From Candidatus Pacearchaeota archaeon CG1_02_39_14 (GTDB taxonomy: Archaea > Nanobdellota > Nanobdellia > Pacearchaeales > GW2011-AR1), in assembly GCA_001872315.1 (NCBI GenBank), contig MNVZ01000023.1, forward strand, positions 1-36,965: a DNA stretch of 36,965 nucleotides, read 5' to 3'. The notes under the pieces were generated by a model that saw only the letters and a list, made by a program, of their open reading frames with translations, had not been told where the DNA came from and made no database searches. Made by a program: the position numbers and the translations under genes. Each line of letters opens with the position of its first letter. Within the stretch, counting starts at the first letter, position 1. This document shows positions 1-18,071 of the stretch, in pieces.

Positions 1-122
1 GCGACTATTATCCTGTAAGCGTACCCTAAAATTTTGGAAAACACAATCGCGACGAAGACTAGAACTGAAGCCCTTGCTAAAAACTTTAGAGAATCATTGA
101 GTTCCTGATTTTCAAGGCCCAT
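1..122 (-). CDS. Oligosaccharide flippase (Wzx/MATE-like), N-terminal fragment running off the window
   Basis: Reverse-strand reading from ATG at 122: MGLENQELNDSLKFLARASVLVFVAIVFSKILGYAYRIIVA; typical first TM segment of polysaccharide flippases; not in ORF track because truncated. Confidence 0.7.
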   Translation of the reverse strand, partial: MGLENQELNDSLKFLARASVLVFVAIVFSKILGYAYRIIV

Positions 123-175
123 ATTTAATGAAGAATTCTTCTGTTTATAAAACCATAGATTCAGCTTACATTCGA

Positions 176-1825
176 TTATTTAATCAGCTTCTCCTTTGCT
201 GATTTTAGAAAGAATCTCAGAAGGACCGGGTTCTTAAGAGCCAAATAGATGAGTCTGTAAGCATATTTGCTTCCAAGAAGTCTTTTTCTCCTTAATAGTG
301 AGGATAGCTCTACTATGAAGTTTTTTTGATGGAAGAACTCATTGAAAACTTCAGAATCCATATTATTTATTTTATTTAGTCTGAGGAGAGGTATTGAAAT
401 AAAGCAAGTATTTTTCTCGTTTAGCATGTCAATTTCCTTTCCTTCAAAAAAAGACCTGAATTTGGATATGTTTTTCATAAAATATTCATTTGAAACTGAA
501 ATCTGATTTATTGTCAAGGCCTGAGAGACCTTGCGCTTATCCAAAATGCCAAGTGCCCTAAGAATATTGGATGCGAGATAGTCTTTTAGAATTTTGTCAT
601 GAATGTAATAGTCGCAGCAGCTAATTTGTTTTTTTGTTTTTTCTAAGGAATAAGCCTGAAGATAGTCTTTATACCTTAGAGGGTTGGCATTTCCATTGGA
701 AAAAGTGATGTAATTAAATCTCTTAGCTAGAGTCTTAATTTCGGAATCGGACTTTTTCATGTCTTCTTTTGTCAATACTCCAATAGTACCTTTTGTTTTG
801 GGTAATTTGTGCAAGAAAATTTCTGGATTTTCTATTATTTTTTTAAACATTTTTAAAAATTCTTCTAGAATATTGCACCTCTTTATTGCTGCTTTGTAGG
901 AATTTCCAGCTACTTTTTCTCTTTCTTTTTCATTTTTCAAATAATATTTTATTTTTTCCAATAGATCGATGTCATTTCGAACCATAACAATTTCTTTGTT
1001 ATTCTTAAAAAATTTGAAATATCCTTCAAAATAATCCACCAAACTAAATGACTTACAGGAAGCGATTTCAAAAATCCTCCATTTAAAAGCTGATTTTCCA
1101 TATTTGTTTTTTGATAATCCCAGATTGATTTTTGTCTGGTTTATTATACCTGCCATTTCTACTGGACTTATATAACCCCGGCAAAAATCCTTAAATTCGG
1201 GGTAATTATCCCATCTTCCTCCAAATATTTTCAAATTTACTCCATTATTAATCAAGAATCTCATTGTTCCAACGCGCTCTTCTACAGCGTTTCCTACAAA
1301 CACTACGTCATAAATTTTCTTAAGATTCATTGGCCTGAATATTTCAGTGTTTATTCCAAGTGTTGGAAATATATTTTTTATGCTCTCCCTATAATAATTT
1401 TTTAAATAATTAATCTGATGTATAATTGTGCAATCCATGAATAAGGCGTGATATCTTTTGACAGAGTCAAAATCCTTGTCGTCATCCCCGGATATCGAGA
1501 TTATTTTCGTCTTAGGTGAAGCTTTCCTAAGCCTATCAAGAGTTTCAAATGTTAATTCATCCCTTCGGGAATTAATGAATATATATTCCGGTTTTTCCTT
1601 TTTGACTAATGAAATAAAAAGCCCTTCCATTTTTTTATATCCGTTTAATGCTGTTTCTTTCAGCGGGTCAAACAAAAAAACTTTTCCGAACAATTTTTTG
1701 AGCGGGAGGCAGTAATTCTGATACAGGGAGTCTCCCTTAACAGAACAGTTCAGAAAAGCAAACACAAGTTTTTGTTTTTTCAACGTCTTTTCAACTTTTG
1801 AGAAGGGTAAATTTTTATTTTTCAT
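176..1825 (-). CDS. CgeB-like glycosyltransferase with extra C-terminal domain
   Basis: 549 aa; GT1-like C-terminal lobe (IFGGRWDNYPEF...KWRIFEIASCKSFSLVDYFEG); close paralogue of 16398..18071. Confidence 0.75.
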   Translation of the reverse strand: MKNKNLPFSKVEKTLKKQKLVFAFLNCSVKGDSLYQNYCLPLKKLFGKVFLFDPLKETALNGYKKMEGLFISLVKKEKPEYIFINSRRDELTFETLDRLRKASPKTKIISISGDDDKDFDSVKRYHALFMDCTIIHQINYLKNYYRESIKNIFPTLGINTEIFRPMNLKKIYDVVFVGNAVEERVGTMRFLINNGVNLKIFGGRWDNYPEFKDFCRGYISPVEMAGIINQTKINLGLSKNKYGKSAFKWRIFEIASCKSFSLVDYFEGYFKFFKNNKEIVMVRNDIDLLEKIKYYLKNEKEREKVAGNSYKAAIKRCNILEEFLKMFKKIIENPEIFLHKLPKTKGTIGVLTKEDMKKSDSEIKTLAKRFNYITFSNGNANPLRYKDYLQAYSLEKTKKQISCCDYYIHDKILKDYLASNILRALGILDKRKVSQALTINQISVSNEYFMKNISKFRSFFEGKEIDMLNEKNTCFISIPLLRLNKINNMDSEVFNEFFHQKNFIVELSSLLRRKRLLGSKYAYRLIYLALKNPVLLRFFLKSAKEKLIK

Positions 1826-1841
1826 CTTTAATAATGACCCA

Positions 1842-2681
1842 TTAGAATAACTTTTTAAATTTTTTATTATTTGAAGATATGTGCTCTTCTAACGCTTCCT
1901 GCCAAGAGCGCAATTTTATTTTATTTGAATTCAAACACTCGCTGGGAGATCTTTTTACCTTTGAGCTGAATTCGGCCACAGTTTTCCTTTTTATTCTTAT
2001 ATTCCTTCCAGCATATCTAATAGCCTCCTCCACAAATTCAACTGCTGAAGCTCTTCCTTGGTTAGCTACATGATAGATTCCCGAACAATTCCTGGAAATA
2101 AGCTTTTTAATCTCCGTCACCAAGTCTTTTATATAAGTAGGAGAGCCCTCCTGATCGTATGTAGCAATTATTTCGTCTTTATCCATAACTAAATCGAGCA
2201 TTTTATCAAAAACCCCCTTCTTTGAGTCTTTGCTAGTCCCAAAAACCCATCCTGTTCTGATGACCAAATTTCTATCAGAACTTCCCAGGGCAAAAACTTC
2301 CGCAATATATTTCGTTTGGGCATAAATGTTTACAGGGTTTGGAAAACTATCTTCGTTAAATGAATCCTTAATTGAACCATTAAAGACGGATCCTGTGGAA
2401 AGCATAATTAAAGGAATTCCTCTTTTTTTCGCTTCTCTTGCAAGATGGTAAACGCCGATTGAATTTACCCTGTATGCATTCAGAGGATTTTCTTCTGAAT
2501 CTCTGATATTGATGCTTGATAAGGAGAGAATTGCCGAAGGATTATACTTGTCGCAGGCCAAACTTATGCTTTCCGGATTTGTCACATCAAACTCGGATTT
2601 GTCAGGTTTTATGCCAAAATCCAGGTTAGAACCGATCATACCGTGGCCCCCTGATATCAAAATTCTCCCTAAATCAGCCAA
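1842..2681 (-). CDS. dTDP-4-dehydrorhamnose reductase-like SDR
   Basis: ILISGGHGMIGSN nucleotide-binding motif, YAQTK (YxxxK), RTGWVFG; RfbD-like length. Confidence 0.75.
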   Translation of the reverse strand: MADLGRILISGGHGMIGSNLDFGIKPDKSEFDVTNPESISLACDKYNPSAILSLSSINIRDSEENPLNAYRVNSIGVYHLAREAKKRGIPLIMLSTGSVFNGSIKDSFNEDSFPNPVNIYAQTKYIAEVFALGSSDRNLVIRTGWVFGTSKDSKKGVFDKMLDLVMDKDEIIATYDQEGSPTYIKDLVTEIKKLISRNCSGIYHVANQGRASAVEFVEEAIRYAGRNIRIKRKTVAEFSSKVKRSPSECLNSNKIKLRSWQEALEEHISSNNKKFKKLF

Positions 2682-3906
2682 ATTGCATTACCTCCAGTTT
2701 GGGAAATGGAATAATTATTCTAAATGGCTCATTCAATTCTTTCAATCTTGACAAGAAGTAGTCTTTGTAGTTCCACGACAAAAGCAAATAGGTCTTTTGC
2801 TTGCCTTTTTTGATCTCCTCCCAAGTTTTTACAGGGATATGGACCCCGGGAGCAACCTTATTTTGCTTCAAAACAGTATCATCTACCAAATAGTCTATGT
2901 CATCGCAACCGATTTTGCAGTGATTTAGTATTACAACCCCTCTCGCAGGAGCTCCCAGACCTATCAATTTACCGTTTCTTTTCTTTTCTTCATCGATCAT
3001 TTTTCTCAACTCGTTTTTATAGTTCTCGACCTTCAGAGCTACACAATCATAAGTCTCGGGCTTTGTTAAGCCCGATTTTTCTTCCTCTTTAAGCAAGTTT
3101 TTTAAATTTTCTGAAGCAGGAATAGCATTTTCACTCTTCATCACAAAAACCCTCAAAGATCCTCCTTGTGTTGGAATTTTTTCGACATCCACAATTGTTA
3201 ACCCTGCCATTAAAAATGTCCTAACAAGGGAATAGAGTGAAAATGTGTATACATGCTCATGATAGATTGTATCAAATTGTCCATCAAGAATAGTTTCCAG
3301 TGCATAAACTCCTTCCATGACAAGATTTCCAGAATCTTTCATCACAATTCTCGCTGCTTTCAAAAGATCAATATTATCAGGTGTATGGGGTATGACATTC
3401 AATGCAACAATAAGGTCAAACTTTCCACGTGTTTTTGCTATCTCCGAGGCCGTGCTTGTGTCAAAAAATTCTGGCATATAATCTATCCCCTTTTCTTTAT
3501 TCATTTCAACCAAATTTCTTGCAGGATCAACTCCCAATAAATTTGAAGTATATTTTTTGAAAAATGAAAGTAAGGTTCCATCGTTAGACCCAATCTCAAC
3601 TATTTTGGTTTTGTTATTCACTTTAAATTTGCTAGAAAGATAATCAGCAACTTCATTCAAATGCGAAATATTTGACTTGGAACCGGCCGATAAATGGAGG
3701 TAGTTTCTAAATAATTTTTCTGAAGGGACTGTTTTTTCTAATTGAACGAGAAAGCAGTCAGGACAATAGGACAAATTCAGGGGATAAATTTCTTCATCTG
3801 CTATGTCTTTTTCATCAATAAAGGCATTAACTGGAGGCATATCTCCTAACTCTAAAAATCTTTTGATTCCTTCGTAACCACAAACCTTGCACTTCAAATT
3901 ATTCAT
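2674..3906 (-). CDS. Zinc-binding SAM-dependent sugar C-methyltransferase (TylC3/TcaB9-like architecture)
   Basis: N-terminal CxxC...CPDC zinc motif, VEIGSNDGTLL SAM motif, C-terminal GLGAPARGVVILNH domain. Confidence 0.8.
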   Translation of the reverse strand: MNNLKCKVCGYEGIKRFLELGDMPPVNAFIDEKDIADEEIYPLNLSYCPDCFLVQLEKTVPSEKLFRNYLHLSAGSKSNISHLNEVADYLSSKFKVNNKTKIVEIGSNDGTLLSFFKKYTSNLLGVDPARNLVEMNKEKGIDYMPEFFDTSTASEIAKTRGKFDLIVALNVIPHTPDNIDLLKAARIVMKDSGNLVMEGVYALETILDGQFDTIYHEHVYTFSLYSLVRTFLMAGLTIVDVEKIPTQGGSLRVFVMKSENAIPASENLKNLLKEEEKSGLTKPETYDCVALKVENYKNELRKMIDEEKKRNGKLIGLGAPARGVVILNHCKIGCDDIDYLVDDTVLKQNKVAPGVHIPVKTWEEIKKGKQKTYLLLSWNYKDYFLSRLKELNEPFRIIIPFPKLEVMQFG

Positions 3907-4006
3907 GGAAAATATTTAATTTGACCTCTTAAATACTTTATTATACCACAATCTCTTGTCTAATAAATGAAAATTCTTCAAAGTGCGTCCATCATTTACT
4001 TAGAGT

Positions 4007-5077
4007 CTATTTTCCATTATAATCTATAGCCCACCTAGGACTAGTTGCCACACTATACTCTACCAGTGGCTCTTTTAATACCTTTTTCATAACCTCCAGA
4101 TTGTAGTACTTCATGTCATCCATATCCCCAAGTTTCCCTGACTCAAAGGCCTCTTTTATTTCTTTTAAGGCATCTTCAATTCCATATAATGCATTGAAAT
4201 CACAAATCTTCTCAAACTTTCTGAAACTGACCATGTAAGATCTATTGTCCTTATTTTCCTCTACCTTTTCTATTCTGGAATTTGGAAAATAAGAGCTTAT
4301 GAGGGGGACAAGGTCTTTAATCATAAAGTTCAGCTTGCTGTTTCCAACATTGAAAACCTGCTTGTTCACTATGCTTGAATCTTCTGCGATGACCTTCATT
4401 ATCGCTCTTGAGGCATCTTTGACGTGAAGAAATGGCCTATATTGCATTCCATCTCCAAAAAGCAAGATGCTTTTTCCCTGTAATGCCCTTTTAGCCATGA
4501 CATTGACGGCAAGATCAAACCTCATTCTTGAAGAGTATCCAAAAAGAGTCGCAAATCTTAGTGTTGTCACAGAAAAATTTGAGTCTGCTAATGGTAGCAG
4601 CTCATTTTCGCATTGCAATTTAGAGAGAGCATATAAGGTTACAGGACCTACTTGTGACTGCTCATCAAGAAAATTTGAGCCGCTTGCCCCGTAAACGCTG
4701 CAAGATGAAATAAATATAAATTTTTTCACACCTTCTGCTTTTGCCCGTCTTGCCAGGGACATTGTTGCCAGAAAGTTCGTCTGAATTGTTAAATTGGGGT
4801 CAAGGTCTCCTGAAGGGTCATTTGACATTCCTGATAGATGCACCACCGCATTAACACCCTTAAACAGATTTGGGACATTTTCATGATGCGCAACGTCAAG
4901 CTCTGTGATGGTAAGGTTTGGATTTGAAAGATGCTTCTCGAGAGAATTTTTTCCAAAATAAAAGATATCTATTACATGCACTCTGTATCCAGCTTCTAGA
5001 AGCAAAGGGACCAGAACGCTTCCCAAATATCCTGCCCCACCAGTAACAATGATAGTTCCTTTTTTTTCAAATTCCAT
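4007..5077 (-). CDS. NAD-dependent epimerase/dehydratase family SDR
   Basis: VTGGAGYLGS, SSCSVYG, YALSK (YxxxK); lacks TDE of 4,6-dehydratases. Confidence 0.85.
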   Translation of the reverse strand: MEFEKKGTIIVTGGAGYLGSVLVPLLLEAGYRVHVIDIFYFGKNSLEKHLSNPNLTITELDVAHHENVPNLFKGVNAVVHLSGMSNDPSGDLDPNLTIQTNFLATMSLARRAKAEGVKKFIFISSCSVYGASGSNFLDEQSQVGPVTLYALSKLQCENELLPLADSNFSVTTLRFATLFGYSSRMRFDLAVNVMAKRALQGKSILLFGDGMQYRPFLHVKDASRAIMKVIAEDSSIVNKQVFNVGNSKLNFMIKDLVPLISSYFPNSRIEKVEENKDNRSYMVSFRKFEKICDFNALYGIEDALKEIKEAFESGKLGDMDDMKYYNLEVMKKVLKEPLVEYSVATSPRWAIDYNGK

Positions 5078-5130: not shown

Positions 5131-6312
5131 CTAAAACTGTTTTTCCTTAAGAAGTGATTCTGCTGCATTTATTACCTGATCCACACCTATATTCTTCAGG
5201 CAGTTGTAATTGTCCCTGAATGGGAGCTTTCTCATGCTCTTATAGCATCTTCCTCTATCTACTAATATTCTGTGCCTTGGGCTGTCAGTTGGCCAAGCAC
5301 CTACAGATTCAGGTATAGAGGACCCCATTAATTCAACAATTCTTGCGTTTATAGGATATTGATAAGCAAGATGAACTATACTTGTATCTGTTGCAATCAA
5401 AAGACTGGTTTTTTTCAGAAGGCATCCAACTTCCCTTATTGAAAGCATACCACAAGCATTTATCATCATTTCCTTGTTCCGACAATGCTTTTTTATTTCG
5501 TCAAATAATATCTGCTCGCTCTTTGTTCCTGTAACAACTATTTTGTATCCTTTTTGGGAGAAATGGTCTGCAACCTCCGCATATCTTTCAAGGTTCCATA
5601 AATGCGGAGGCCATTTTCCCTCTTTATATGCTTCAGACACATATTTCCCCCCGGGATGAATTATTATGAACTTGCTAAGATTATTTTTTCTTATGAATGA
5701 ATCGGCTTTTTTGTTTTCCTGTCTGGTGAATTCCAAAAATGGCTTTTTTTCCCTGAATTTGAATCCGAGCGCCTCAAACATCCTGAACCTTCCACCAACC
5801 ATATGGTCACCGATTCTTGCCAGTGTTTTCCTTGTATAGCCGAAGCTTTTTCTTCTCATAAGCCCCCTCAACCCAAAATGAGTGGTTCCAACTCTGTATG
5901 GGATAAAGCTAAAATCGTTGGTGTTCAGATTACCAGGATTTAGAAAAACAACTGCCTGAATTTTTTTTTTCCTTAATTTATTCAGACTATCCTTCCCAGA
6001 GTATTCTATAAAATTCATCATTTTTGCCCTCCCGAATTGTTTTATTGTGCTCCTATCACAAAATACCGAAAGGTTTATTTGGGGATGCTGTTTCTTAAAT
6101 GAGTTCAGCACCCCGAGAGTCACAAAGTCTCCTCCAACATTTCCTTTTTCTTGATTTACTAAGACAACTAAAATATTCTTGATTTTTCTGGTTTCAAGAT
6201 TCTTTATTCTTGCAGAATCAAAGAGGAACCACAAAAGATAATCAAAAGCCGAGGCTATTTTTCTCGCTTCCATGTGAATCTGGTTTTTTAGTTTGAATAT
6301 CCAGTCAAACAT
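5131..6312 (-). CDS. Glycosyltransferase family 9 (heptosyltransferase-like)
   Basis: Two-lobe GT9 pattern: IIIHPGGKY...W...RYAEVADHFSQKGYKIVVTGTKSE...LLIATDTSIVHLA. Confidence 0.8.
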   Translation of the reverse strand: MFDWIFKLKNQIHMEARKIASAFDYLLWFLFDSARIKNLETRKIKNILVVLVNQEKGNVGGDFVTLGVLNSFKKQHPQINLSVFCDRSTIKQFGRAKMMNFIEYSGKDSLNKLRKKKIQAVVFLNPGNLNTNDFSFIPYRVGTTHFGLRGLMRRKSFGYTRKTLARIGDHMVGGRFRMFEALGFKFREKKPFLEFTRQENKKADSFIRKNNLSKFIIIHPGGKYVSEAYKEGKWPPHLWNLERYAEVADHFSQKGYKIVVTGTKSEQILFDEIKKHCRNKEMMINACGMLSIREVGCLLKKTSLLIATDTSIVHLAYQYPINARIVELMGSSIPESVGAWPTDSPRHRILVDRGRCYKSMRKLPFRDNYNCLKNIGVDQVINAAESLLKEKQF

Positions 6313-6353: not shown

Positions 6354-7292
6354 TTAATTTTTTTCAGAAATTTGTGATAAAAATCCTTCATATGCCAAAA
6401 CCATACCTTCTTCCAAAGAAACTCTTGGCTGCCAACCCAACCCTTTTATTTTAGAAGAATCTAAGAGCTTTCTCATCATCCCGCTTGGCTTTGTTATATC
6501 AAAAAATACCCTCCCCTTGTAACCTACTGTCTGCCTAACAACTTCGGCTATTTCTCCAACCGAATAGTCTCTTCCAGTTCCCACGTTTATAGGATCTGGA
6601 GATTCGTAAGTATCCATTAAAAACAAACATGCTTGAGCCAAATCATCAACATACAAAAGCTCCCTTCTCCTTTCCCGACTTCCCGAAATAGAAATTGATT
6701 CTAAATCCTCTTTTTTTGCCTCGTGACATCTTCTTATCAAGGTCGGAACAATATGTGAATTAACCAAGCCATAATTATCTCTTGGTCCAAACAGACTTGC
6801 CGGAATGACTGAAATAAATCTTGCACCATACTGCCTGCTAAAAGCATTGCACATTTCAATCCCTGCCAGTTTTGCTACAGCAAAGGGCTGATTTGTAGGC
6901 TCTAACCGGCCTGTGAATAAAGCTTCCTCATTCATCGGCTGTTCGCATTCCTTAGGATATGCACAATTGCTTCCAAGATAAAGAAGTTTTTTCACTCCAG
7001 TCTTCCAAGCAGAAACAAGAACGTTAGTCTGCATTTGAATATTGTCCGTAATGAATTCTGCTCTTCTTGTATTATTTGCCTGCAGACCTCCAACTCTCCC
7101 GGCGGCAAAAAAAACATAATCTGGTTTTTCGGAAGCAAAAAAGTCTTTTGTAGCTCTTTGGTCACACAAGTCAATTTGGCCATGTGGAACGAGAGCAAGG
7201 TTGCGGAAACCCCTTTCCTTTAGGGCCCTTACAATCGCAGAACCAACAAGCCCCGTATGTCCTGCAACATATACTTTTTCATCTTCTTTCAT
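6354..7292 (-). CDS. GDP-L-fucose synthase (GMER/ColC) homologue with Tyr-to-Phe substitution in YxxxK
   Basis: GHTGLVGSAIVRAL, GSNCAYPK, EPTNQPFAVAKLAG, FGPRDNYGLVNSHIVP; aligns along its length with WcaG/Fcl. Confidence 0.85.
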   Translation of the reverse strand: MKEDEKVYVAGHTGLVGSAIVRALKERGFRNLALVPHGQIDLCDQRATKDFFASEKPDYVFFAAGRVGGLQANNTRRAEFITDNIQMQTNVLVSAWKTGVKKLLYLGSNCAYPKECEQPMNEEALFTGRLEPTNQPFAVAKLAGIEMCNAFSRQYGARFISVIPASLFGPRDNYGLVNSHIVPTLIRRCHEAKKEDLESISISGSRERRRELLYVDDLAQACLFLMDTYESPDPINVGTGRDYSVGEIAEVVRQTVGYKGRVFFDITKPSGMMRKLLDSSKIKGLGWQPRVSLEEGMVLAYEGFLSQISEKN

Positions 7293-8429
7293 TTACCTGA
7301 ATTTTTCATACATATGGAGACTTTCTGTGATGTGATCCAAATCTGACCTATTAAGACCCTGATGAACTCCAATATGGAGACCATTATCTCCGACATATTC
7401 TGCCTCTGGAAATTCTCCGAGTTGATGTCCAAGAAAAGCAAAGCCCCTATGTTGCGTGGGCATGCTCCCAAAGTTTCTTTTACAATTTATTGATAAGTCT
7501 TGCAGATGCTGATAGAGTCCTGTATAGTCCAAGCTTGGATCTCTCAAGGTAACGCTAAATCCATGAGGGCATATAACCTCATCCCTGCCCTCCTCACTAA
7601 ATAAAACAAATTTGCTAAGGTCTTTATTTTGATCCCACAAATATTTTAAGTTGTCCTTTCTTGTTTCAAAAACATTCCAGAAATCCTCTAAATGTGCTCT
7701 TCCAATTGTAGCATGAAAATCACTCATTTTTAAATTTAATCCTGGAAGTATGTGATCCATATATTGAGAGCCGGCAACCCTTCCGTGATTCCTGACAGCC
7801 CTTACGCTATTTGCTAGGTCCTCTCTGGCTGCAGAAACCATTCCCCCCTCTCCGGCCCAAACCAAGTGAGCCATATAGAAACTAAACGTGGCCATGTCAC
7901 CGAAGCTTCCTATGAATTGTCCTTTGTACTTTGCCCCATGAGCCTCGCAAGAATCTTCTATTACAAAAAGATCATGTCTTCTGGCTATATCCATAATCCT
8001 GTCCATCTCACAAGGCTTTCCCATTGTATGGACGGGCATTATTGCTCTTGTTCTATCTGTTATTCTTTCTTCTATTAAGCCTGGATCTATATTCAATGTT
8101 TCTCTGCTAATATCAGCAAAAACAGGTTTAAATCCTGCAGCTAAGGGAGCGTTAACCACTGAAATCCATGCAAGGGCAGGGACTATCACTTCATCTCCTC
8201 TTTCTGCTCCGTGATTATAAAGCGCTAACAAAGCCCCAATATCTGCTGCAGTTCCCGAAGCAACGGAAACGTTATGCTTATAATCAAACAAGGCTCCCCA
8301 CTCATCCCCAAATCTTTCAGCCTCTTGCCACGCCACTGCTGTTGGAAGAAATTTCCCTTCTGCGACTCTTTCCAGGTTGGATTTTGCTTTTTGAGATAAT
8401 TCCCCAAATCCAAATTCAACTCTCGCCAT
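7293..8429 (-). CDS. DegT/DnrJ/EryC1/StrS-fold PLP enzyme, predicted ColD/RfbH-type sugar 3-dehydratase
   Basis: SGTAADIGALLAL, VIEDSCEAHGAKYKG, FSFYMAHLVWAGEGGMV with His where aminotransferases have the PLP-Lys. Confidence 0.85.
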   Translation of the reverse strand: MARVEFGFGELSQKAKSNLERVAEGKFLPTAVAWQEAERFGDEWGALFDYKHNVSVASGTAADIGALLALYNHGAERGDEVIVPALAWISVVNAPLAAGFKPVFADISRETLNIDPGLIEERITDRTRAIMPVHTMGKPCEMDRIMDIARRHDLFVIEDSCEAHGAKYKGQFIGSFGDMATFSFYMAHLVWAGEGGMVSAAREDLANSVRAVRNHGRVAGSQYMDHILPGLNLKMSDFHATIGRAHLEDFWNVFETRKDNLKYLWDQNKDLSKFVLFSEEGRDEVICPHGFSVTLRDPSLDYTGLYQHLQDLSINCKRNFGSMPTQHRGFAFLGHQLGEFPEAEYVGDNGLHIGVHQGLNRSDLDHITESLHMYEKFR

Positions 8430-8539: not shown

Positions 8540-9490
8540 ATGGCGAAAGAAAGAGTTTTAATAACTGGGGGAGCAGGATTTTTAGGAAACGTTCTTACGC
8601 GCCGTTTTCTTGGAGAAGGGCATAAAGTCACTTGCCTAGATAATTTGATGTATAGGCAAGATCAGTCAATAATGCCTCTGGCCGCAAACCCTGATTTTGA
8701 GTTTGTATTTGGAGATGTAAGAGATAGGGCTTTAATGGAAGAACAGGTTCCGAGACACGATATAGTTTTTCACATGGCTGCAATTGTAGGCGCTCCTGCT
8801 TCAGAGCAGAGGCCTTTTGATACAAAATCTATTAATCAGGATTCAGTTGCCATTCTGGAGAGTGTAAGAGGGAAAGGGCAGAAAGTTGTCTTTCCAAACA
8901 CTAACTCGGGCTATGGAACGAAATCCGGTCAGTTTCATTGTGATGAAACAACTCCCTTGGAGCCTATTTCTTTATATGGTGTGACAAAATGTGCCGGAGA
9001 GGATATTCTTCTTCAATCAGGCAAGGGGGCTGTTGTTTATAGGTTAGCAAGTGTTTTTGGAATTTCTCCTAGGATGAGACTTGATTTATCTTTCCATGAC
9101 ATGGTTTTGCAGGCATTATCGACAGGAGCAATTGTTATGTCTGAAGGAAGTTTCACTAGAAATTATGTCCACATACAAGATGTAGCGTCTGGGTTCCAGC
9201 ATGCTATCCAAAATTATGACTCTATGGTTGGAGAGGCATTTAATTTGGGATCTGATGGAGCAAATATTACAAGAAAAGATCTCGCTATGAAAGTTTCACA
9301 ACGTATTCCTGGGACCGTTGTTTATGAGAATGAGGGAAAAGCGGATCTCGACAAAAGAAACTACCTTGTCTCGAATGAAAAATTAAGAAGAGTGGGATTT
9401 GAAGCAAATAGGACAATTGATCAAGGAATAGAAGAGGTAAGAAGAGGACTAGCAATAATGCTTAAGAATAATCCATACAGAAATGTTTAG
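8540..9490 (+). CDS. NAD-dependent epimerase/reductase family SDR
   Basis: VLITGGAGFLGN, TNSGYG, YGVTK (YxxxK); similar to 4007..5077. Confidence 0.85.
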   Translation: MAKERVLITGGAGFLGNVLTRRFLGEGHKVTCLDNLMYRQDQSIMPLAANPDFEFVFGDVRDRALMEEQVPRHDIVFHMAAIVGAPASEQRPFDTKSINQDSVAILESVRGKGQKVVFPNTNSGYGTKSGQFHCDETTPLEPISLYGVTKCAGEDILLQSGKGAVVYRLASVFGISPRMRLDLSFHDMVLQALSTGAIVMSEGSFTRNYVHIQDVASGFQHAIQNYDSMVGEAFNLGSDGANITRKDLAMKVSQRIPGTVVYENEGKADLDKRNYLVSNEKLRRVGFEANRTIDQGIEEVRRGLAIMLKNNPYRNV

Positions 9491-9505: not shown

Positions 9506-11545
9506 ATGATTAAGGCACTAATTTTAATTAAAGGCTATAAAACAAAATTTGGAACAGACTTAGAAGACACTCTTCCTATGAATTATATTGTCGGCAAGCC
9601 TTTTCTCGAGCATCAAATCGAATTTCTTAAATCACAGAATGTAAAAGAAATGATTTTTGTTATCGATAAGAATTCTGATAATATAAAATCATATTTTGGC
9701 AATGGATTAAGTTGGGGGGTTGAAATAACTTATTTAGAGAGCGAGATTCCATTGGGAAGCGCTGGGGCGATAAAAAAAGCAGAAAAATATTTGGGCGATA
9801 TGTTTATTATAATGAATGGCGACTCATACAGCCATGTCGATATAGGAAAATTAATTGAAGTTCATGAAAGAAATAGGCTTGTTGCAACAATCTGTCTAAC
9901 AAGGGCAAAAGATTCTTCGGATTATGGATATGTTGTTCTTGAAAAAGAAAAAATCAAGAGCTTTTCGGAAAAATCATTCAGTGGAGAAGGGCTTGTAAAT
10001 AGCGGAGTTTATTTATTTTCCCGCGGAATTTTAGATTGGATAGAGGAAGACAAGTTTTCTAGTCTTGAAATAGACGTTTTTCCTAAACTTTCATTGAAAG
10101 GCAGTTTGGCGGGATATTTGTATGATGGATATTTTATGGATCTGAAAAAACCTGAGACTTATAAAAAATTCAGAGAAGATGTATTATCGAGCCTTCTTCT
10201 CAAACCGACAGGTACTGTTAAAGACGCTTTGAAAAAGATAGTTCAAAGTGGAATAAATATTGTGCTGATTGTTGATGAAAGTATTAGACTGCAAGGAGTC
10301 CTAACAGACAGAATAATAAAAAATTTCCTTCTTAATGGGGGAGATATTAATGATTTTGCAAAAAAGGCTATGATCGATAACCCAATTATTGCGAGAAATA
10401 CGGATTCAAAGGAGAAGATTAATGAAATTCTCCTGAAAGGTATTAACAGTCTTCCTATAATTGATGAACAAGGAAAGGTAATTGATGTTGAATTCAGGAC
10501 TGACCGGATAAAAGAAAACCTTTTTCCGATTGTAAGGGGAAGGGCTCCCCTGAGAATAGGCCTTGCCGGTGGAGGAACGGATTTACCAAACTTCTTTGAA
10601 AAATATGGGGGGGTAGTTATTAGTTCTACAATTGACAAGTACTGCTATGGAACAATTATAAAAAGAGCTGATAACAAAATCATTATAGACTCAGATATAA
10701 CTTCTGATAAAGATGTTACTGTATCTTCAATAAAAGATTTAAAATATGATGGAAAATTTGATTTGATAAAAGCCATAATAAAACTGATGAATCCTGACTT
10801 TGGCTTTGAACTATATTTACACAACGATGTTCCACCTGGAAGAGGCCTTGGCTCTTCTGCCAGCTTATCTGTTTTGGTTATTAGCCTTCTGGCATATATG
10901 CAAAATAAAAGCTATGACGAGTACAAAATTGCGGAAATTGCATATAATGCTGAAAGAGAAGAGCTGAAAATAAGAGGCGGGTGGCAAGACCAATATGCTG
11001 CTGCAATTGGAGGTTTTAATTTTATGGAGTTTTCAAAAGACAAGACCCTTGTGTATCCATTAAGAATAAAAAAAGATATTATAAGAGAACTTAACGGGCA
11101 CATGCTTTTATGTTATGTTGGACAAGAGCATTTTTCAAGCGACATTCATAAAAGCACTGAAGAACAAATGGAAAGGGATGAGGGGGAAGTTTTATCAAAT
11201 TTAAAAAGAATAAAAGAGATTGCACTTGAAACAAAAGATTGTCTTCTTAAAAATGAAATCAAAAGAATCGGCGAATTGCTCCATGAATCCTGGGAAAATA
11301 AAAGGAAACTAGGAAATAAAACCTCCAACCCTGTCATAGACGAATTTTACGAAATCGGACTTAAAAATGGAGCTTACGGAGGCAAACTTTTGGGAGCGGG
11401 TGGAGGAGGATATATTTTATTCTTTTATTCCCCTAAAAAGAGAAATCAACTTGTTAGGGCACTAAAAAATGCTGGTGGAGAGATAATGACCTTCAATTTT
11501 GAATCAGAAGGTGTAACTCTGTGGACTTCAAAAAACAAAATTTAG
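9506..11545 (+). CDS. Fusion: nucleotidyltransferase-like domain, CBS-like pair, GHMP sugar kinase (HddC-HddA-like)
   Basis: N-term GKPFLEHQIEFL and MNGDSYSHVD; middle VKDALKKIVQSGINIVLIVD...SLPIIDEQGKVI; C-term RAPLRIGLAGGGTDLPNF and PPGRGLGSSASLSVL. Confidence 0.85.
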   Translation: MIKALILIKGYKTKFGTDLEDTLPMNYIVGKPFLEHQIEFLKSQNVKEMIFVIDKNSDNIKSYFGNGLSWGVEITYLESEIPLGSAGAIKKAEKYLGDMFIIMNGDSYSHVDIGKLIEVHERNRLVATICLTRAKDSSDYGYVVLEKEKIKSFSEKSFSGEGLVNSGVYLFSRGILDWIEEDKFSSLEIDVFPKLSLKGSLAGYLYDGYFMDLKKPETYKKFREDVLSSLLLKPTGTVKDALKKIVQSGINIVLIVDESIRLQGVLTDRIIKNFLLNGGDINDFAKKAMIDNPIIARNTDSKEKINEILLKGINSLPIIDEQGKVIDVEFRTDRIKENLFPIVRGRAPLRIGLAGGGTDLPNFFEKYGGVVISSTIDKYCYGTIIKRADNKIIIDSDITSDKDVTVSSIKDLKYDGKFDLIKAIIKLMNPDFGFELYLHNDVPPGRGLGSSASLSVLVISLLAYMQNKSYDEYKIAEIAYNAEREELKIRGGWQDQYAAAIGGFNFMEFSKDKTLVYPLRIKKDIIRELNGHMLLCYVGQEHFSSDIHKSTEEQMERDEGEVLSNLKRIKEIALETKDCLLKNEIKRIGELLHESWENKRKLGNKTSNPVIDEFYEIGLKNGAYGGKLLGAGGGGYILFFYSPKKRNQLVRALKNAGGEIMTFNFESEGVTLWTSKNKI

Positions 11546-11551
11546 CTAAAT

Positions 11552-12055
11552 TTAGCTAAATTCTTCCTCTATTTTTTCGGAAATAAGATGAATTATCGAT
11601 AAATGTTTTTCCTGTATCTTGGAGCTTTCGTCAGACTGAACTATAATTGACAGGTCGCACAAGTCCTTTAATTTACCTCCGTCCTTCCCTAAAAGGCAGA
11701 TTGTAAAACAATCAAGATCTCTTGCTTTTTTTATGGCATTTATTATATTTTCTGAATTCCCTGATGTACTTAATCCAATCAAAACATCCCCTTTTTTAGC
11801 ATATGCTTCAATTTGCCTTTCAAAGATTTTTTCAAACCCAAAGTCATTTGCTATGGAAGTTATCATCGGTAAATTTGAAGTTAAATCTAAGCATTCAATA
11901 GGTTTTCTGTTAATTTTGTATCTATTAATAAGATTCGCAGCCATATCCTGCGATTGTGCGGCGCTTGAGCCGTTCCCGCATATCAAAACTTTCCCGCCTT
12001 TTTTGTAAGAATCAATGATCTTCTCGATTGCCTTAAATATAAGATTAAATTCCAT
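11552..12055 (-). CDS. gmhA: SIS-domain phosphoheptose isomerase (GmhA-like)
   Basis: LICGNGSSAAQSQDMAANL, SIANDFGFEKIFERQ, LSTSGNSENI, IQEKHLSIIHLI. Confidence 0.8.
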   Translation of the reverse strand: MEFNLIFKAIEKIIDSYKKGGKVLICGNGSSAAQSQDMAANLINRYKINRKPIECLDLTSNLPMITSIANDFGFEKIFERQIEAYAKKGDVLIGLSTSGNSENIINAIKKARDLDCFTICLLGKDGGKLKDLCDLSIIVQSDESSKIQEKHLSIIHLISEKIEEEFS

Positions 12056-13691
12056 TCTGATGTTGCTCTACTACTAACCTTCTTGAAGGAGCTTTTGCAT
12101 TTACTTTTATGAATTTTTGAGCATTTTCTACACCGAATCTTTGGGCGAGCATTTCAGAATATCCTTTATTAGTAAAATATGCTGCTAAAGCTTGATCTCT
12201 AAATGCTATAATTTCTCCGGGATGTAGGTGCTCGGTTGGCAGTGGCCAGGTTTCATAAGCATGTTGTGAATAGCCTAACCAGCCTGGGCCTCCCTCATCC
12301 TCTGGAAGAAGAGCCCTATTTGGATTCCAATCTTTTGGGACGGGAAGGAGACGATCTAACACTGCAAGACTACCCCTCTGATAAACTTCTGATTGCGCCC
12401 TTTTTAGGGTTCTTGAAGTATTTTGAGCCATTCTATGCAGCTCAGAACCTGGATAGGCCATTGCACAGTAGAAGTTTGGTCTTTCGCAGTTTAATTCCAG
12501 AGAGAGGTCAAGAGTTTCCTGCATTGTGCGATTGGTGTCATCAGGAAGACCAAAAATGAAATTTCCTACAACGTAAATCCCTGCGTTTTGAACCATTGCA
12601 ACATTCTTCGCTATTTGCTCGTAACCAAATCTTCCTTTTTCTATTCCATCTCTCACATGGTCGCTTGCGGATTCTATTCCCAAAGCCAGCCATCTAATTC
12701 CTGCCTGTCTAAGAGTGTCCAAAGTGTCTTCTCTCAGAGTATCCACCCTTGCATAAGCCCAGATGTTGAGTCTTTCTCCTAGACCTCTTGTTATCAATTC
12801 TTTTGCAATCGACATATAATGTCTTCTATCAAGAACAAACATTTCATCTATTATTTTTAGATTTCTTACTCCGTGTTCTTCAACAAGAAACTGAATTTCA
12901 TCTACTACATCCTTTGGATTTCTAAATCTAATTGCGTTTTTCGTCTCTCCTTCTTCATTGAAGGGGGCGTTAATGCAACAGAAACTACATTCAAAGGGAC
13001 AACCAAAACTTGTATAGACTGCACCATATGGTTGTCTGTTATCCAGATCTTCAAGGGCATGCCAATCATGAGCCCTATATTCTTTAACAGGAAGCAGGTC
13101 CCATGCAGCTCTTGATAATCCTCGACTTAGATCATCATTTGTCATCAACTTTGAAGGAAGACCTTGCACAACCTTCCCAGATTCTTTATACCACAGTCCT
13201 GGAACCTGAGAATTTGGAGCTCCTTTCAATAAAGCAGTTGCTGTGTCAAATCCATCTCCTCTGCCTACAAAATCGCATGCTTCTTCTTCAAGAGTTTTTC
13301 TTGGTAGCGCTGCTGGATGGGTCCCCGTAAGAAGAATCTTTGTTTCAGAGTCAGAATCTTTTACTTTTTGACAAACTTCTCCGACCCAACCCATTAATTG
13401 AGATGAAGCAGAGGGTTGATTTCCGTGAACTATAATCTGGGTTAATCTTGAATTTGCTTCAACTATTCTAGCAGTAGCTTCATCTGAACTTAAACCAAGA
13501 ACGTTTGCATCGAGAATGTCTGCCCCATATCCTCTGTTTCTCGCAAATTCTGCTGTAAGTGCTGCTAGATATGGGGATTCTAAAGCAGGATATCCTTCTG
13601 CTTCCAGACCTTCATGGTAAACTCTCGTGTGAGATGGGTTGACAAGTAAAAGATCCAATTCACTTTTTTCTGTGTTTCGGGGGTCATTCAT
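12045..13691 (-). CDS. Radical SAM protein with N-terminal B12-binding-like domain
   Basis: CPFECSFCC (CxxxCxxC); Rossmann-like N-terminus LLVNPSH...ILLTGTHPAALP; start moved to the internal ATG (MNDPRNTEKSE) preceded by AGGT, removing overlap with the upstream gene. Confidence 0.8.
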   Translation of the reverse strand: MNDPRNTEKSELDLLLVNPSHTRVYHEGLEAEGYPALESPYLAALTAEFARNRGYGADILDANVLGLSSDEATARIVEANSRLTQIIVHGNQPSASSQLMGWVGEVCQKVKDSDSETKILLTGTHPAALPRKTLEEEACDFVGRGDGFDTATALLKGAPNSQVPGLWYKESGKVVQGLPSKLMTNDDLSRGLSRAAWDLLPVKEYRAHDWHALEDLDNRQPYGAVYTSFGCPFECSFCCINAPFNEEGETKNAIRFRNPKDVVDEIQFLVEEHGVRNLKIIDEMFVLDRRHYMSIAKELITRGLGERLNIWAYARVDTLREDTLDTLRQAGIRWLALGIESASDHVRDGIEKGRFGYEQIAKNVAMVQNAGIYVVGNFIFGLPDDTNRTMQETLDLSLELNCERPNFYCAMAYPGSELHRMAQNTSRTLKRAQSEVYQRGSLAVLDRLLPVPKDWNPNRALLPEDEGGPGWLGYSQHAYETWPLPTEHLHPGEIIAFRDQALAAYFTNKGYSEMLAQRFGVENAQKFIKVNAKAPSRRLVVEQHQNGI

Positions 13692-13725
13692 ATTATTACC
13701 TGAAGTTTGTTGTTTATGAATCTTT

Positions 13726-14295
13726 TTATTTGAAATGCAAATCTCCATACTCGATTAATAAGCTTGGACCTTTTCTTTCAAGAGCTCTTTGATAGGCTGG
13801 AACAATTTGTTCTGGTTGAGTTAACCTTGTTACATTGACTCTCTGAAGCATAGAGGTAAAAGCGCCTGTGTGATCCTGACAATGTTGAGGACCAGGATAA
13901 ATAGGGTTTCTGCTCCCTACAACTGCTCTGATTATTACATGCGGATCATGTTGTCCTCTTGACATTTCATGCATTTTATCTAAGTGATTAACTAGTTGAT
14001 TCGATGCAAGAAGGAGAAAATCTACTCTTGGATAGACTGTTACCGGAATATATCCCTCGAGAGCCATTCCTATAGACATTCCCATTTGAGTGTCTTCCAT
14101 AATAGGAAGTTCTATCCTTTTTTCTGCAGGAATATCTTCCAGAGTGCCGAAGGTAAATCTGCTTCCAGGGAATCCGACTGTTTGTCCTAAAAAGATAGTT
14201 CTTTCGTCATCCGCCAGAATCCCCATGGCCTCTTTTAGTGCGGCCCTGTAAACGTTTGTTCTTTCAGGCACATTTACAAGCTCATTTGTTATCAA
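13726..14295 (-). CDS. TPP-dependent dehydrogenase E1-beta / transketolase PYR-domain protein, short
   Basis: ELPIMEDTQMGMSIGMALEGYIPVTVYPRVDFLLLASNQLVNHLDKM; retains the E1-beta Glu; only 189 aa. Confidence 0.8.
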   Translation of the reverse strand: MITNELVNVPERTNVYRAALKEAMGILADDERTIFLGQTVGFPGSRFTFGTLEDIPAEKRIELPIMEDTQMGMSIGMALEGYIPVTVYPRVDFLLLASNQLVNHLDKMHEMSRGQHDPHVIIRAVVGSRNPIYPGPQHCQDHTGAFTSMLQRVNVTRLTQPEQIVPAYQRALERKGPSLLIEYGDLHFK

Positions 14296-15050
14296 AATCC
14301 AACCTCCTTTCCAACTCCCTGATGTGGAAAATCATTATTATAGGCATAAACTAATACCCTGCCCTGCAATCCTGAAACCATTGAATTTCTTTTTTCTAAA
14401 CCCCAAGATTCTTGAGTTGGAGTATCAACACTATACCCGTTGTCTTCAACCACGAAGGTAATTGGCAGGTCGTTTCTAAAAGCATATTTTGTTGCTTCAT
14501 GAAAGGCCCCTGTCTCTGCAGCCATGTCTCCGCAAAATGCCCAGACGTGCTCTGGTCTTCTCTGTCTTTTAAGAGCCAAGGCGGCCCCAGTTGCAATCGC
14601 TAGATGTCCTGGGACAATTGCCGAAGTAATATGCCTATAATCGCTGTTTATTGGATGCATGCTCCTTCCCGCAAGAATTTCTTCTTTAAGATGATCTGTA
14701 GGAACCCCTTTTAATAGAGCTGCGTAATGACATCTATAGGAAGAAAATAACCGGTCTTCTCTCTGTATTCCCTTAAAAACAGGGTCCTGTTCTTGCAGAT
14801 TATCTGGTACTAATATCATTTTTGAACTTTCCAAATCCTCTCGAGACATATTTGAAGCCTGAGAGTAGGTAATATATTCCCCTGCCCTTAATCCTCTAAA
14901 GATTCTTATTATTTGTTCTTCGTTTCCCCTGGAAAAGTGGGCCGGCCCATTAACCTGGCCTTCCTGAGCTAATCTTGCCAATTCTATTTCAAAAGCAATT
15001 AATTCTGCCTTAGCTCTTTCTAAGTCTCCCAGGTCCATATAACAGCCCAA
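14292..15050 (-). CDS. TPP-dependent dehydrogenase E1-alpha-like protein, short
   Basis: SYRCHYAALLKG, VWAFCGDMAAETGAFHEATKYAFRNDLPITFVVEDNGYSVDTPT; ATGA overlap with 13726..14295. Confidence 0.8.
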   Translation of the reverse strand: MGCYMDLGDLERAKAELIAFEIELARLAQEGQVNGPAHFSRGNEEQIIRIFRGLRAGEYITYSQASNMSREDLESSKMILVPDNLQEQDPVFKGIQREDRLFSSYRCHYAALLKGVPTDHLKEEILAGRSMHPINSDYRHITSAIVPGHLAIATGAALALKRQRRPEHVWAFCGDMAAETGAFHEATKYAFRNDLPITFVVEDNGYSVDTPTQESWGLEKRNSMVSGLQGRVLVYAYNNDFPHQGVGKEVGF

Positions 15051-15088
15051 GGGGGCAATTATTTAAAGATTTGTATAGCAAGATAAAA

Positions 15089-15778
15089 TTAAATTTGGGC
15101 TTTGGACGCTCTAACAAGAGCTTTGGAATCGTAGACAAATTCGGATTCGTAATCTTTGAAAGAGGCCCTTGGGTCTCCAATAACTGTTGCTATTAATGTA
15201 GAAGGAAATGGAATCTTTGTGTCAAATTTATAATTCAAAATCGGGGCTGTTGCATAGGCTGTTGAGAATTCTCCTCGCGGATTATTCGCAAGTTCATCCA
15301 GAGTGAATATCCCAAAAAGGCCCTCACCCATCATACGCCTTTGATTCTTAATTTCCAAATCTACCCTGTCTATAACTTCTTCCGGAATAACTGATTGAAA
15401 AACACTATAAACTGCAGAATACGGATTATTTCCTCCTGGAATGGAACCGGCCTCAACATAAAAATCCATGAAAGGGATTACATTTCCCAAAAGCGCATTT
15501 CTTACTGCTCTAATTGCTGCAGGATTAGACCAACTCACATGACCTAGATTAATTTTTTTCAATGCGTGATTTGGATCAAATTCTTCGCTTACTTCCCTTA
15601 TCAGAACATTTTCGGGAGAATCCTCGCCTGGCTCAGGATTGCCTCCAAGATTGTTCGCAGATAGCCTATAAGCCGGCTTCGAGTATTCTTCGTCATAAAC
15701 CCCCATCAAAAGACGAACCCTTTTTGGGGAAAAACATAGGACTACTGATGGATGAGCATCAATCTTTCTTCTGGTCAT
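15089..15778 (-). CDS. NUDIX-like hydrolase
   Basis: GGNPEPGEDSPENVLIREVSEEFD resembles the Nudix box but with one extra residue between E and RE. Confidence 0.6.
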   Translation of the reverse strand: MTRRKIDAHPSVVLCFSPKRVRLLMGVYDEEYSKPAYRLSANNLGGNPEPGEDSPENVLIREVSEEFDPNHALKKINLGHVSWSNPAAIRAVRNALLGNVIPFMDFYVEAGSIPGGNNPYSAVYSVFQSVIPEEVIDRVDLEIKNQRRMMGEGLFGIFTLDELANNPRGEFSTAYATAPILNYKFDTKIPFPSTLIATVIGDPRASFKDYESEFVYDSKALVRASKAQI

Positions 15779-15821
15779 GAAAAAAATTATATTTCTTCTA
15801 TATAAACTTTTTGTATAAAGA

Positions 15822-16307
15822 TTATAGCTCTTTTATTTTTCTTATTAATTCAGAAGTAGAAATTTTACCAAATTCAGGAGGGCAGGTTCTCGGGAGTATC
15901 TTGAGATTTATATTGAGCCTTTCGCACAAAGTTTTTCTATAGGGCATATCAAAAGCATCCTCGTTTACTACATAAAAATCTGGTTTCAGCTCTTCTAGAA
16001 CAAAATCAATAAACTTTAGCCTGTTTCCTATGTTTGAGATTTTGTCTAAAAGTACCAAATCTACAGGTTTCAGGGAATCTATTGTTTTTAGCCTTATGTG
16101 CTCATTAAGAATCACTCTTTTTTTGTTTTCAAACATTATGCTATCTCCTCCAATGCCTACCACTAACAAATCTCCCAACCTTTTGCAGTCTTCAAAGAAC
16201 AGTATGTGTCCTGCATGAGTTAGATCAAAATTTCCTGAACAAAACACTATTTTCCTATCCTTGTTCTGTTCCCTAATTTTTCTTAATTCTTCGGAATTAA
16301 TTATCAT
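15822..16307 (-). CDS. Cytidylyltransferase-family protein (RfaE2/TagD-like)
   Basis: VFCSGNFDLTHAGHI and ISTSELI motifs. Confidence 0.8.
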   Translation of the reverse strand: MIINSEELRKIREQNKDRKIVFCSGNFDLTHAGHILFFEDCKRLGDLLVVGIGGDSIMFENKKRVILNEHIRLKTIDSLKPVDLVLLDKISNIGNRLKFIDFVLEELKPDFYVVNEDAFDMPYRKTLCERLNINLKILPRTCPPEFGKISTSELIRKIKEL

Positions 16308-16397
16308 ATTTTTCTCAACAAGCGAAGGTTTTTTAATTTTTCTATACTAAAACCACCTAAAGAATTATAAAGGATTTATTAATTTCCTATTTAAAAT

Positions 16398-18071
16398 ATG
16401 GCTTTAAAAAGAAAAAAGATTTCCTTATCGGAAGCGGAAAAAATCCTTAAAAAACAAAAGATAGTATTTTCCTTCTGGAATTGCTCTAGTAAGAGAGATA
16501 CGCCTTACCAGAATTACTATCTTCCTATGAAAAAAATTTTTGGGAAGGCTATCCTTTTTGACCCAAGAAAACTCAGGGCAATACATGGGTCTGAAAAAAT
16601 GAATAATCTTTTCCTTTCCATGATAAAAAAAGAACAGCCTGACTATATTTTTGCAAATATAAGAAGAGATGAAGTGACCATCAGCACTATGGAAAAAGTA
16701 AGGCAAGCCTCTCCAAAGACTAAAATAATCTCTTTTTCGGGGGATGACGAGAGAGATTTTGAGCCATTAAAGAGATATCAGGCCTTGTTTGTTGATTGCA
16801 CTCTTGTGGCACAAGTTGATTATTTGAAAAATTATCTGAAGGACGGAATTAATAACATCTATCCTACCTTTGGGATAAATACAGACATATTCAAGCCCAT
16901 TGATACAAAGAAGATTTATGACGTAACTTTTATAGGCAAGCCCTTGAAGCCTAGAATAGATATAATGAGATTCCTGATAAAAAACAAGGTAAATCTGAGA
17001 ATTTTCGGCCCGGGATGGGAGGCTTATCCTGAATTCAAAGAGCTTTATTTGGGGGCTCTTCCCACAGAAGATATGGCAAAAACCATAAGCCAAAGCAGGA
17101 TAAATCTCTCCCTGTCCAAAAATGCAGATGGAGTCCCGCACCTCAAAGGAAGAACTTTTGAGCTTGCCGCTTGCAAATCTTTCTGTCTTGTAGAATATTT
17201 TAAAGGTTATCTGGAATTTTTTGAGGAAGGCAAAGAAATTATTATGGTAAAGAATAAAAAAGATCTTCTTTCGAAAATAAATTATTATCTAAAGAATGAA
17301 AAGAAAGGGGAGAAAATAGCTGAAAATGCCTACAAGAAAGCTGTCAAAAACCATAGCGTACTGAATGAATTTAAGAATATGTTTAAAGAAATAATGGAAA
17401 GGCCTGAAATTTTTAGGTCTGGTCTCCCTAAGATTAAAGAAAATATAATCATGCTTGATAAAAAAGACCTTGAAAAAAAGGATTTAGAAATAGAAAATAA
17501 GATAAAAGCTTTTGATTATATCTCCTTTTCTGACGGCAATGATATTCTGCTAGACAATAAAGATCAGCTTCAGACATATTCCCTGAAAAAGACAGGAAAA
17601 GATGCAAGTTGCTGTGATTATTATGTTCATGATAGAATCCTTGGAAATTATTTAATGACTAATGTTTACAAGGCATTTAATTATTTAAGCAGAGAACAAA
17701 TATCTCAGATGCTCTGTCCAAATCAAATTATGGTTAGGAAGAAATTTTTTCTTGCAAATTTAAATGAATTCAGGAAATTTTTTAGAGGTGAAAATAATCT
17801 CCTATTTAACAAAAAAAATACCTGTCTTATCTCAATTCCTCTTGTTGCAGTCAAAACACTAAGGAAAATGGATCCTGGAATCCTTTTTTCAGCTGCATTT
17901 CACAAAGAATTTGCCATCAAGGCCTACTTGCTGATGAAGCAAAAAAAGATTTTAATAAATCCCTACATATACAGATTGGCCTATCTTATTGTAAGGGATC
18001 CATTATTGAGGCATTGCTTTATAGACGCCCTAAAGAATCGAAAGAATTGGGTATTACAATCTAATCATTAG
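16398..18071 (+). CDS. CgeB-like glycosyltransferase, paralogue of 176..1825
   Basis: Strong similarity to 176..1825 along its length, including the C-terminal SCCDYYVHDRIL block. Confidence 0.75.
   Translation: MALKRKKISLSEAEKILKKQKIVFSFWNCSSKRDTPYQNYYLPMKKIFGKAILFDPRKLRAIHGSEKMNNLFLSMIKKEQPDYIFANIRRDEVTISTMEKVRQASPKTKIISFSGDDERDFEPLKRYQALFVDCTLVAQVDYLKNYLKDGINNIYPTFGINTDIFKPIDTKKIYDVTFIGKPLKPRIDIMRFLIKNKVNLRIFGPGWEAYPEFKELYLGALPTEDMAKTISQSRINLSLSKNADGVPHLKGRTFELAACKSFCLVEYFKGYLEFFEEGKEIIMVKNKKDLLSKINYYLKNEKKGEKIAENAYKKAVKNHSVLNEFKNMFKEIMERPEIFRSGLPKIKENIIMLDKKDLEKKDLEIENKIKAFDYISFSDGNDILLDNKDQLQTYSLKKTGKDASCCDYYVHDRILGNYLMTNVYKAFNYLSREQISQMLCPNQIMVRKKFFLANLNEFRKFFRGENNLLFNKKNTCLISIPLVAVKTLRKMDPGILFSAAFHKEFAIKAYLLMKQKKILINPYIYRLAYLIVRDPLLRHCFIDALKNRKNWVLQSNH

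Follow-up and report, generated by a model that had tools for sequence, protein, structure and literature searches.

A candidate gene set for a GDP-linked 3-deoxy, C4-branched heptose in a Pacearchaeota genome and its relatives in viral contigs and bacteria

Introduction

The closest described relatives of the sugar locus treated here are the GDP-heptose pathways of Campylobacter jejuni (Cj1427, the HS:5 3-dehydratase, Cj1428/Cj1430). Their epimerases are of the RmlC type. These make up a group of their own, which has a His/Tyr dyad (PMC10440746). The enzyme Cj1427 oxidises GDP-D-glycero-D-manno-heptose at C4, with NADH recycled by alpha-ketoglutarate, and together with the 3-dehydratase it gives GDP-3-deoxy-4-keto-heptose in vitro and then novel GDP-3-deoxy-heptoses, the 3-deoxy-D-glycero-heptoses being new products of the Campylobacter enzymes (PMC10680097). 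Our locus is the left 18 kb of a 36,965-nucleotide contig (MNVZ01000023.1; this whole stretch is called the window) from the 688 kb, 86% complete genome of Candidatus Pacearchaeota archaeon CG1_02_39_14. It resembles the Campylobacter pathways in its predicted GDP-heptose, Cj1427-type C4 oxidation and pyridoxal phosphate (PLP)-dependent 3-dehydration. It differs in its epimerase, a homologue of GDP-fucose synthase (GMER), and in two components that the described Campylobacter pathways lack, namely a thiamine diphosphate (TPP)-dependent pair resembling E1-alpha and E1-beta subunits and a B12-type radical S-adenosylmethionine (SAM) enzyme.

The yersiniose pathway (RfbFGH/YerE/YerF) follows the same logic, in which a 4-keto sugar is deoxygenated at C3 and then receives a two-carbon branch at C4 from a TPP-dependent enzyme. 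However, YerE is a flavoprotein of the decarboxylase superfamily acting on a CDP-hexose, whereas the window has a compact E1-type pair predicted to act on a GDP-heptose. E1-type TPP alpha/beta enzymes put two-carbon branches on ketosugars in antibiotics (PMC12247030, PMC4425429). Examples are the pairs AviB1/AviB2, Pau11/Pau12 and KbDH-alpha/beta, and the same transfer of a two-carbon unit to a ketosugar is predicted for ours. Pau11 and Pau12 have 325 and 345 amino acids (PMC4425429), while the window pair has 252 (alpha) and 189 (beta) and no C-terminal transketolase domain; the AviB/Pau/KbDH kind is known from antibiotic clusters, whereas compact pairs were found in phages, archaea and glycan loci. 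Finally, the GDP-colitose pathway (ColD/ColC) combines a DegT-fold 3-dehydratase, with His replacing the PLP-binding Lys (DegT-His), with a GMER-family epimerase. In contrast to that pathway, our locus has no gmd, carries a predicted C4-dehydrogenase and heptose genes instead, and has Phe in place of the GMER Tyr (GMER-Phe).

Results and discussion

A first-pass annotation, made from the sequence alone, had proposed a branched, deoxygenated and possibly heptose-based surface sugar. The genes it named are present as long open reading frames between positions 176 and 18071 and belong to the expected families, and for each of the three attributes there is support from co-occurrence across independent loci and from catalytic residues that are conserved. 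The gene families, these residues and the repeated linkage are established by the comparisons below. We judge it an even chance that the product is a GDP-activated heptose, deoxygenated at C3 and branched at C4, destined for a glycan of the cell surface.

Occurrence of the gene set in other genomes

The E1-alpha/beta genes, DegT-His, the radical SAM gene and a short-chain dehydrogenase/reductase (SDR) gene, SDR2, recur together in viral contigs (as classified by IMG/VR), in Nitrospira, in other bacteria and in archaea of the same family. The database scans covered the best 80 loci, and the frequencies given here describe close relatives. At least 528 viral-contig stretches encode an E1-beta relative. 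The radical-SAM-centred viral loci form 58 clusters at 80% identity, 47 of which span at least 14 kb; both E1 genes are present in 33 of these 47, DegT in 38 and SDR2 in 27. In the E1-beta-centred set, E1-beta is followed immediately by the DegT gene in 35 of 79 loci. The background is very low, with E1-alpha in 6 of 50,697 named phage records. Hallmark genes show that some of the contigs come from phages: in L079 the cassette sits between the major head protein and tape-measure protein genes, and L085 and L093 carry PhoH. A second common viral arrangement (L152 and similar) reads E1a-E1b-DegT(His)-three SDRs-RfaE2 and lacks both the radical SAM gene and heptose genes.

Two Nitrospira genomes (L056/L060) hold a single run of radical SAM-HddA-GMER-E1a-E1b-DegT(His)-HddC-SDR2, adjoined in L056 by an ABC-2 exporter, and a homologue of GmhA is encoded at another place in the genome. 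Parts of the core set occur in Albibeggiatoa, Omnitrophota and Parcubacteria. Within the window's own family, four archaeal genomes (G282, G357, G388 and G376) have overlapping subsets of SDR2, the HddC-CBS-HddA (HddCA) fusion, GMER, DegT-His and radical SAM, and the fusion is conserved in this family (L240, L243, L246, L247). In the archaeon G068, a fused E1 gene lies beside an RmlA-like gene, RmlB (500 bits) and RfbH (490 bits), by analogy the set expected for a 3,6-dideoxy-4-keto hexose, the yersiniose-type substrate of YerE.

The co-occurrence proposed in the first-pass annotation is therefore borne out for E1-alpha/beta, DegT-His and radical SAM, but GMER-Phe was found in just one other archaeal locus. 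The annotation had also known of no described archaeal pathway with this combination. No description of it was found in open-licence papers. The core is not confined to archaea; it is common in viral contigs, and Nitrospira and other bacteria have it too. Its recurrence suggests a genuine pathway, held in common and so far undescribed.

Likely source of the 4-ketone and of the heptose

A 3-dehydratase of the ColD/RfbH kind requires a 4-keto sugar as its substrate. The first-pass annotation had seen no 4,6-dehydratase in the locus, and neither gmd nor any other 4,6-dehydratase was found in the genome (86% complete), where the gmd model tops out at 24 bits. The TDE motif is absent from both extended SDRs, as had been stated, and from two other genomic SDRs inspected (C5 and C31). 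What had been overlooked is SDR2 as the likely source of the ketone. SDR2 matches PDB entries 6vo6/6vo8 at 265 bits (E 6.6e-78, residues 4-313), the next structure reaching 102 bits, and retains NTNSGYG and YxxxK. The title of 6vo6 reads only 'putative sugar-nucleotide epimerase'; we take 6vo6/6vo8 to be C. jejuni Cj1427, the GDP-heptose C4-dehydrogenase. On this resemblance SDR2 would likely oxidise C4 without 6-dehydration, and a 4,6-dehydratase would therefore not be needed. GmhA, the HddC-CBS-HddA fusion and a GmhB-like HAD phosphatase encoded elsewhere in the genome (C18:13360-13830, E 5e-20) would together supply GDP-heptose, which fits a Cj1427-type SDR2. One of the other genomic SDRs (G000:C31, L054:3544-4533) contains the motif ASTNKVYGD, which recalls CDP-tyvelose/paratose 2-epimerases.

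These results bear on a quite improbable alternative, in which the locus encodes an ordinary GDP-colitose-like hexose pathway on GDP-mannose and the heptose-like genes are misannotated. The colitose pathway uses the same pair of GMER and DegT-His, HddC resembles mannose-1-phosphate guanylyltransferases, and the archaeal locus L046 has a gmd-like gene together with DegT-His, GMER and E1. Against it stand the presence of GmhA and the HddA fusion, the failure to find gmd or another 4,6-dehydratase in the 86% complete genome, and SDR2, which is much closer to the GDP-heptose enzyme than to any hexose enzyme whose structure is known.

Predicted deoxygenation and epimerisation

The 3-dehydratase candidate has His (H188) at the PLP-lysine position, and His occupies this column in 59 of 59 relatives from a first collection of related loci. 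The E1-beta-centred set yielded 56 DegT neighbours that could be scored at this column, all with His and none with Lys, and 7 that could not. A few contigs are common to both sets, and because His-type enzymes were used to build the model, distant Lys-type members could be under-counted. An aminotransferase role is not supported, His being found throughout. As the protein scores 215 bits against a cut-off of 423 for RfbH, it is RfbH-like in its predicted mechanism and not a member of that family.

The altered active site reported for the GDP-fucose-synthase homologue was confirmed by alignment to the E. coli enzyme: the equivalent of Tyr136 is Phe, and those of Cys109, Lys140 and His179 are kept. 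The Ser-Tyr-Lys reductase triad is thus broken while the Cys109/His179 epimerisation pair is intact, and we infer from these residues that GMER-Phe could epimerise its substrate yet leave the 4-ketone in place, which would suit a subsequent branching step. The same Phe was found in one locus of the same archaeal family (L249:18555-19496) and not in the others examined, nor in any phage or bacterial GMER-family relative examined; Nitrospira has Tyr. With just one further case, GMER-Phe was rejected as a marker of the pathway.

The TPP-dependent pair

The description of the TPP pair as E1-like stands, since it matches E1_dh in Pfam, but these are not ordinary E1 subunits, because they are compact and the beta subunit lacks the transketolase C-terminal domain. 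The TPP-site residues are conserved in the relatives, with the catalytic Glu in 70 of 70, Gly174 in 74 of 74 and Asn204 in 73 of 74. In a model of a naturally fused E1 homologue (pLDDT 88), the second half superposes on pyruvate dehydrogenase E1-beta to about 1.9 A across roughly 176 columns; the whole chain matches 1-deoxy-D-xylulose-5-phosphate (DXP) synthase with poor superposition. Gene linkage is the main evidence for a branching role of the pair.

In another reading, which we regard as improbable, the pair is a split transketolase that feeds sedoheptulose-7-phosphate to the heptose genes, and no branch is added. Archaea often have split transketolases, transketolase as well as DXP synthase is among the fold matches, and a true split pair (Transketolase_N; Transket_pyr plus Transketolase_C) lies next to the radical SAM gene in L240. 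Nevertheless, our pair matches neither Transketolase_N nor Transketolase_C, it tracks the 3-dehydratase (DegT in 22 of 36 E1-beta-centred viral clusters) and not GmhA (2 of 36), and E1 also occurs in 3,6-dideoxy-hexose-type clusters. The L240 pair (L240:6953-8736), which also adjoins the HddCA gene, perhaps supplies sedoheptulose-7-phosphate there.

In the cyanophages P-TIM68 (L039) and S-SM2 (L040), a single gene for fused E1-alpha and E1-beta, with the annotation 'transketolase central region', sits amid phosphoheptose isomerase, kinase and nucleotidyltransferase genes.

The radical SAM enzyme

The CxxxCxxC motif is retained in 88 of 88 relatives of the radical SAM enzyme, and the closest folds to its AlphaFold model (pLDDT 88) are TsrM and, about equally, AprD4. 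TsrM is a cobalamin methyltransferase, and AprD4 is a sugar diol dehydratase acting on the aminoglycoside paromamine. The enzyme may methylate or deoxygenate the sugar. The second option, an AprD4-like radical diol dehydration giving a further deoxygenated and not a methylated product, is a variant of the branched-heptose proposal that we consider possible but rather unlikely. AprD4 ranks with the top fold matches and its target coverage is higher (TMt 0.74-0.75), and its hidden Markov model (HMM) matches at E 1e-21; on the other side, TsrM has the lowest E-value, HpnJ is the best family HMM, and the Pfam B12-binding match falls just under the cut-off (30.0 against 32.1 bits).

Recent transfer from phage is not supported, since the radical SAM proteins of archaea group in a single clade with support of 95/93. 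Among named phages, the only radical SAM relative was a distant Streptomyces phage match. In one viral locus (L045:12422-14953) the gene is split by what looks like an intein, which runs from CLTGDTVV... to ...ANNVLVKNC and contains an HNH-like stretch; it lies within CxxxCxxC, directly before the second cysteine.

Proposed pathway

From these comparisons we infer the reactions, their order, the two-carbon donor and the destination of the sugar. Sedoheptulose-7-phosphate would be converted to GDP-D-glycero-D-manno-heptose by GmhA, the HddA domain, the GmhB-like phosphatase and the HddC domain. SDR2 would then oxidise C4 as Cj1427 does, without 6-dehydration, and DegT-His would remove the 3-hydroxyl to give GDP-3-deoxy-4-keto-heptose. 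GMER-Phe could invert C5, the ketone staying because the Tyr proton donor is lost. The compact E1 pair would move a two-carbon unit, probably derived from pyruvate, onto the C4 ketone, in chemistry like that of YerE and AviB1/AviB2. The radical SAM step, either methylation or deoxygenation, could come before or after branching. An SDR may then reduce the branch ketone, and the CgeB or GT9 enzymes may attach the sugar to a glycan.

More tentatively, and with slightly less than an even chance, phages, bacteria and archaea may share a mobile pathway for GDP-linked 3-deoxy, C4-branched, radical-SAM-modified heptoses that are not known to have been isolated, in which the branch is added by a compact TPP-dependent enzyme of a kind other than YerE and AviB. 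If the branched-heptose proposal is right, a new sugar class and a new subfamily of branching enzymes are predicted, and chemistry hitherto joined in vitro (C4-oxidised, 3-deoxygenated GDP-heptose) would have a natural use. The same glycan chemistry would extend across archaea, bacteria and uncultured phages, and a phage and archaeal surface-sugar function could be tested with a handful of soluble enzymes.

Several observations weigh against the branched heptose. The phage E1-DegT cassettes mostly have no heptose genes nearby (HddA in 4 of 36, SDR2 in 5 of 36), and the E1 pair is absent, within contig reach, from the archaeal clusters L243/L249 and L246, perhaps because contigs end there. GMER-Phe is not conserved, and the window E1-alpha (14292-15050) carries about 33 extra residues in frame, an insert present in 0 of 152 relatives, which could impair or alter the enzyme. 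The HddA, HddC, GmhA and GmhB scores are all under their curated cut-offs, the PDB title of 6vo6 does not itself name Cj1427, and in a genome 86% complete a 4,6-dehydratase that was not found is not proven absent.

Part of this evidence would also suit a mosaic island that makes a plain or 3-deoxy heptose, with the E1 pair, radical SAM and C-methyltransferase/RmlD/SDR1 serving one or more other sugars in a variable locus, which we regard as unlikely. Besides the phage cassettes, it accords with archaeal relatives in which SDR2, HddCA, GMER and radical SAM are kept but no E1 pair is seen, with island genes that run in both directions and form several transcription units, and with the rarity of C-methyltransferase and RmlD beside the cassette. 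However, E1 is found near HddA/HddC and/or SDR2 in Nitrospira, Albibeggiatoa, Omnitrophota and many phage loci, SDR2, DegT and GMER are next to one another in the island, and the linkage of radical SAM to E1 is strong, all of which speaks against a mosaic.

Gene content and setting of the locus

Table 1. Genes of the sugar island, with positions in the window.
Feature	Position	Strand	Basis
CgeB-type glycosyltransferase (PF13524)	176..1825	-	Pfam
RmlD-like 4-ketoreductase	1842..2681	-	TIGR01214 166 bits, under its cut-off
C-methyltransferase, TylC3/TcaB9 architecture	2674..3906	-	PF08421+PF13489+PF08484
SDR1, extended SDR without TDE motif	4007..5077	-	second, weaker relative of 6vo6 (131 bits)
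GT9 heptosyltransferase-like glycosyltransferase	5131..6312	-	family match
GMER-Phe, GDP-fucose-synthase homologue; predicted C5-epimerase without 4-reductase	6354..7292	-	GDPFucSynFcl 403 bits (cut-off 500)
DegT-fold PLP enzyme, His replacing Lys; predicted 4-keto sugar 3-dehydratase	7293..8429	-	
SDR2, predicted Cj1427-type GDP-heptose C4-dehydrogenase	8540..9490	+	best PDB match 6vo6/6vo8
HddC-CBS-HddA fusion, 679 aa; heptose-1-P guanylyltransferase and heptose-7-P kinase	9506..11545	+	HddA 298, HddC 115 bits
GmhA, sedoheptulose-7-phosphate isomerase	11552..12055	-	TIGR00441 186 bits (cut-off 209)
B12-type radical SAM enzyme	12045..13748	-	family match, CxxxCxxC, AlphaFold model
Compact E1-beta-like TPP subunit, PYR domain only, catalytic Glu67, 189 aa	13726..14295	-	
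Compact E1-alpha-like TPP subunit, PP domain, 252 aa, in-frame insert	14292..15050	-	
Nudix-box-like protein without family match	15089..15778	-	single 31% homologue, L243:9045-9746, related archaeal cluster
RfaE domain-II-like nucleotidyltransferase	15822..16307	-	55-57% homologues in L246 and L243 clusters
Second CgeB-type glycosyltransferase (PF13524)	16398..18071	+	

The archaeal assignment of the locus is upheld by the right half of the window, where the gene order S13-S4-S11-RpoD-L18e-L13-S9 and SecD/F form an archaeal backbone. The core genes of the island have a G+C content of 40-42%, which is the backbone level, and only the glycosyltransferases are low (about 32%); G+C content was therefore dropped as a mark of recent transfer. 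The left block (RmlD, C-methyltransferase, SDR1 and GT9) seldom travels with the core set and may serve a different sugar. The supposed flippase fragment at 1-175 is unverified, its 57 readable residues having no Pfam match. CgeB genes are also present in the related archaeal clusters L240, L241, L243/L249 and L246.

Directly beyond the island, positions 18061-18936 encode a UDP-glucose dehydrogenase-like protein of 291 amino acids without the C-terminal nucleotide-binding domain. Similarly short relatives (about 260 amino acids) occur next to the cassette in L085 and other viral contigs.

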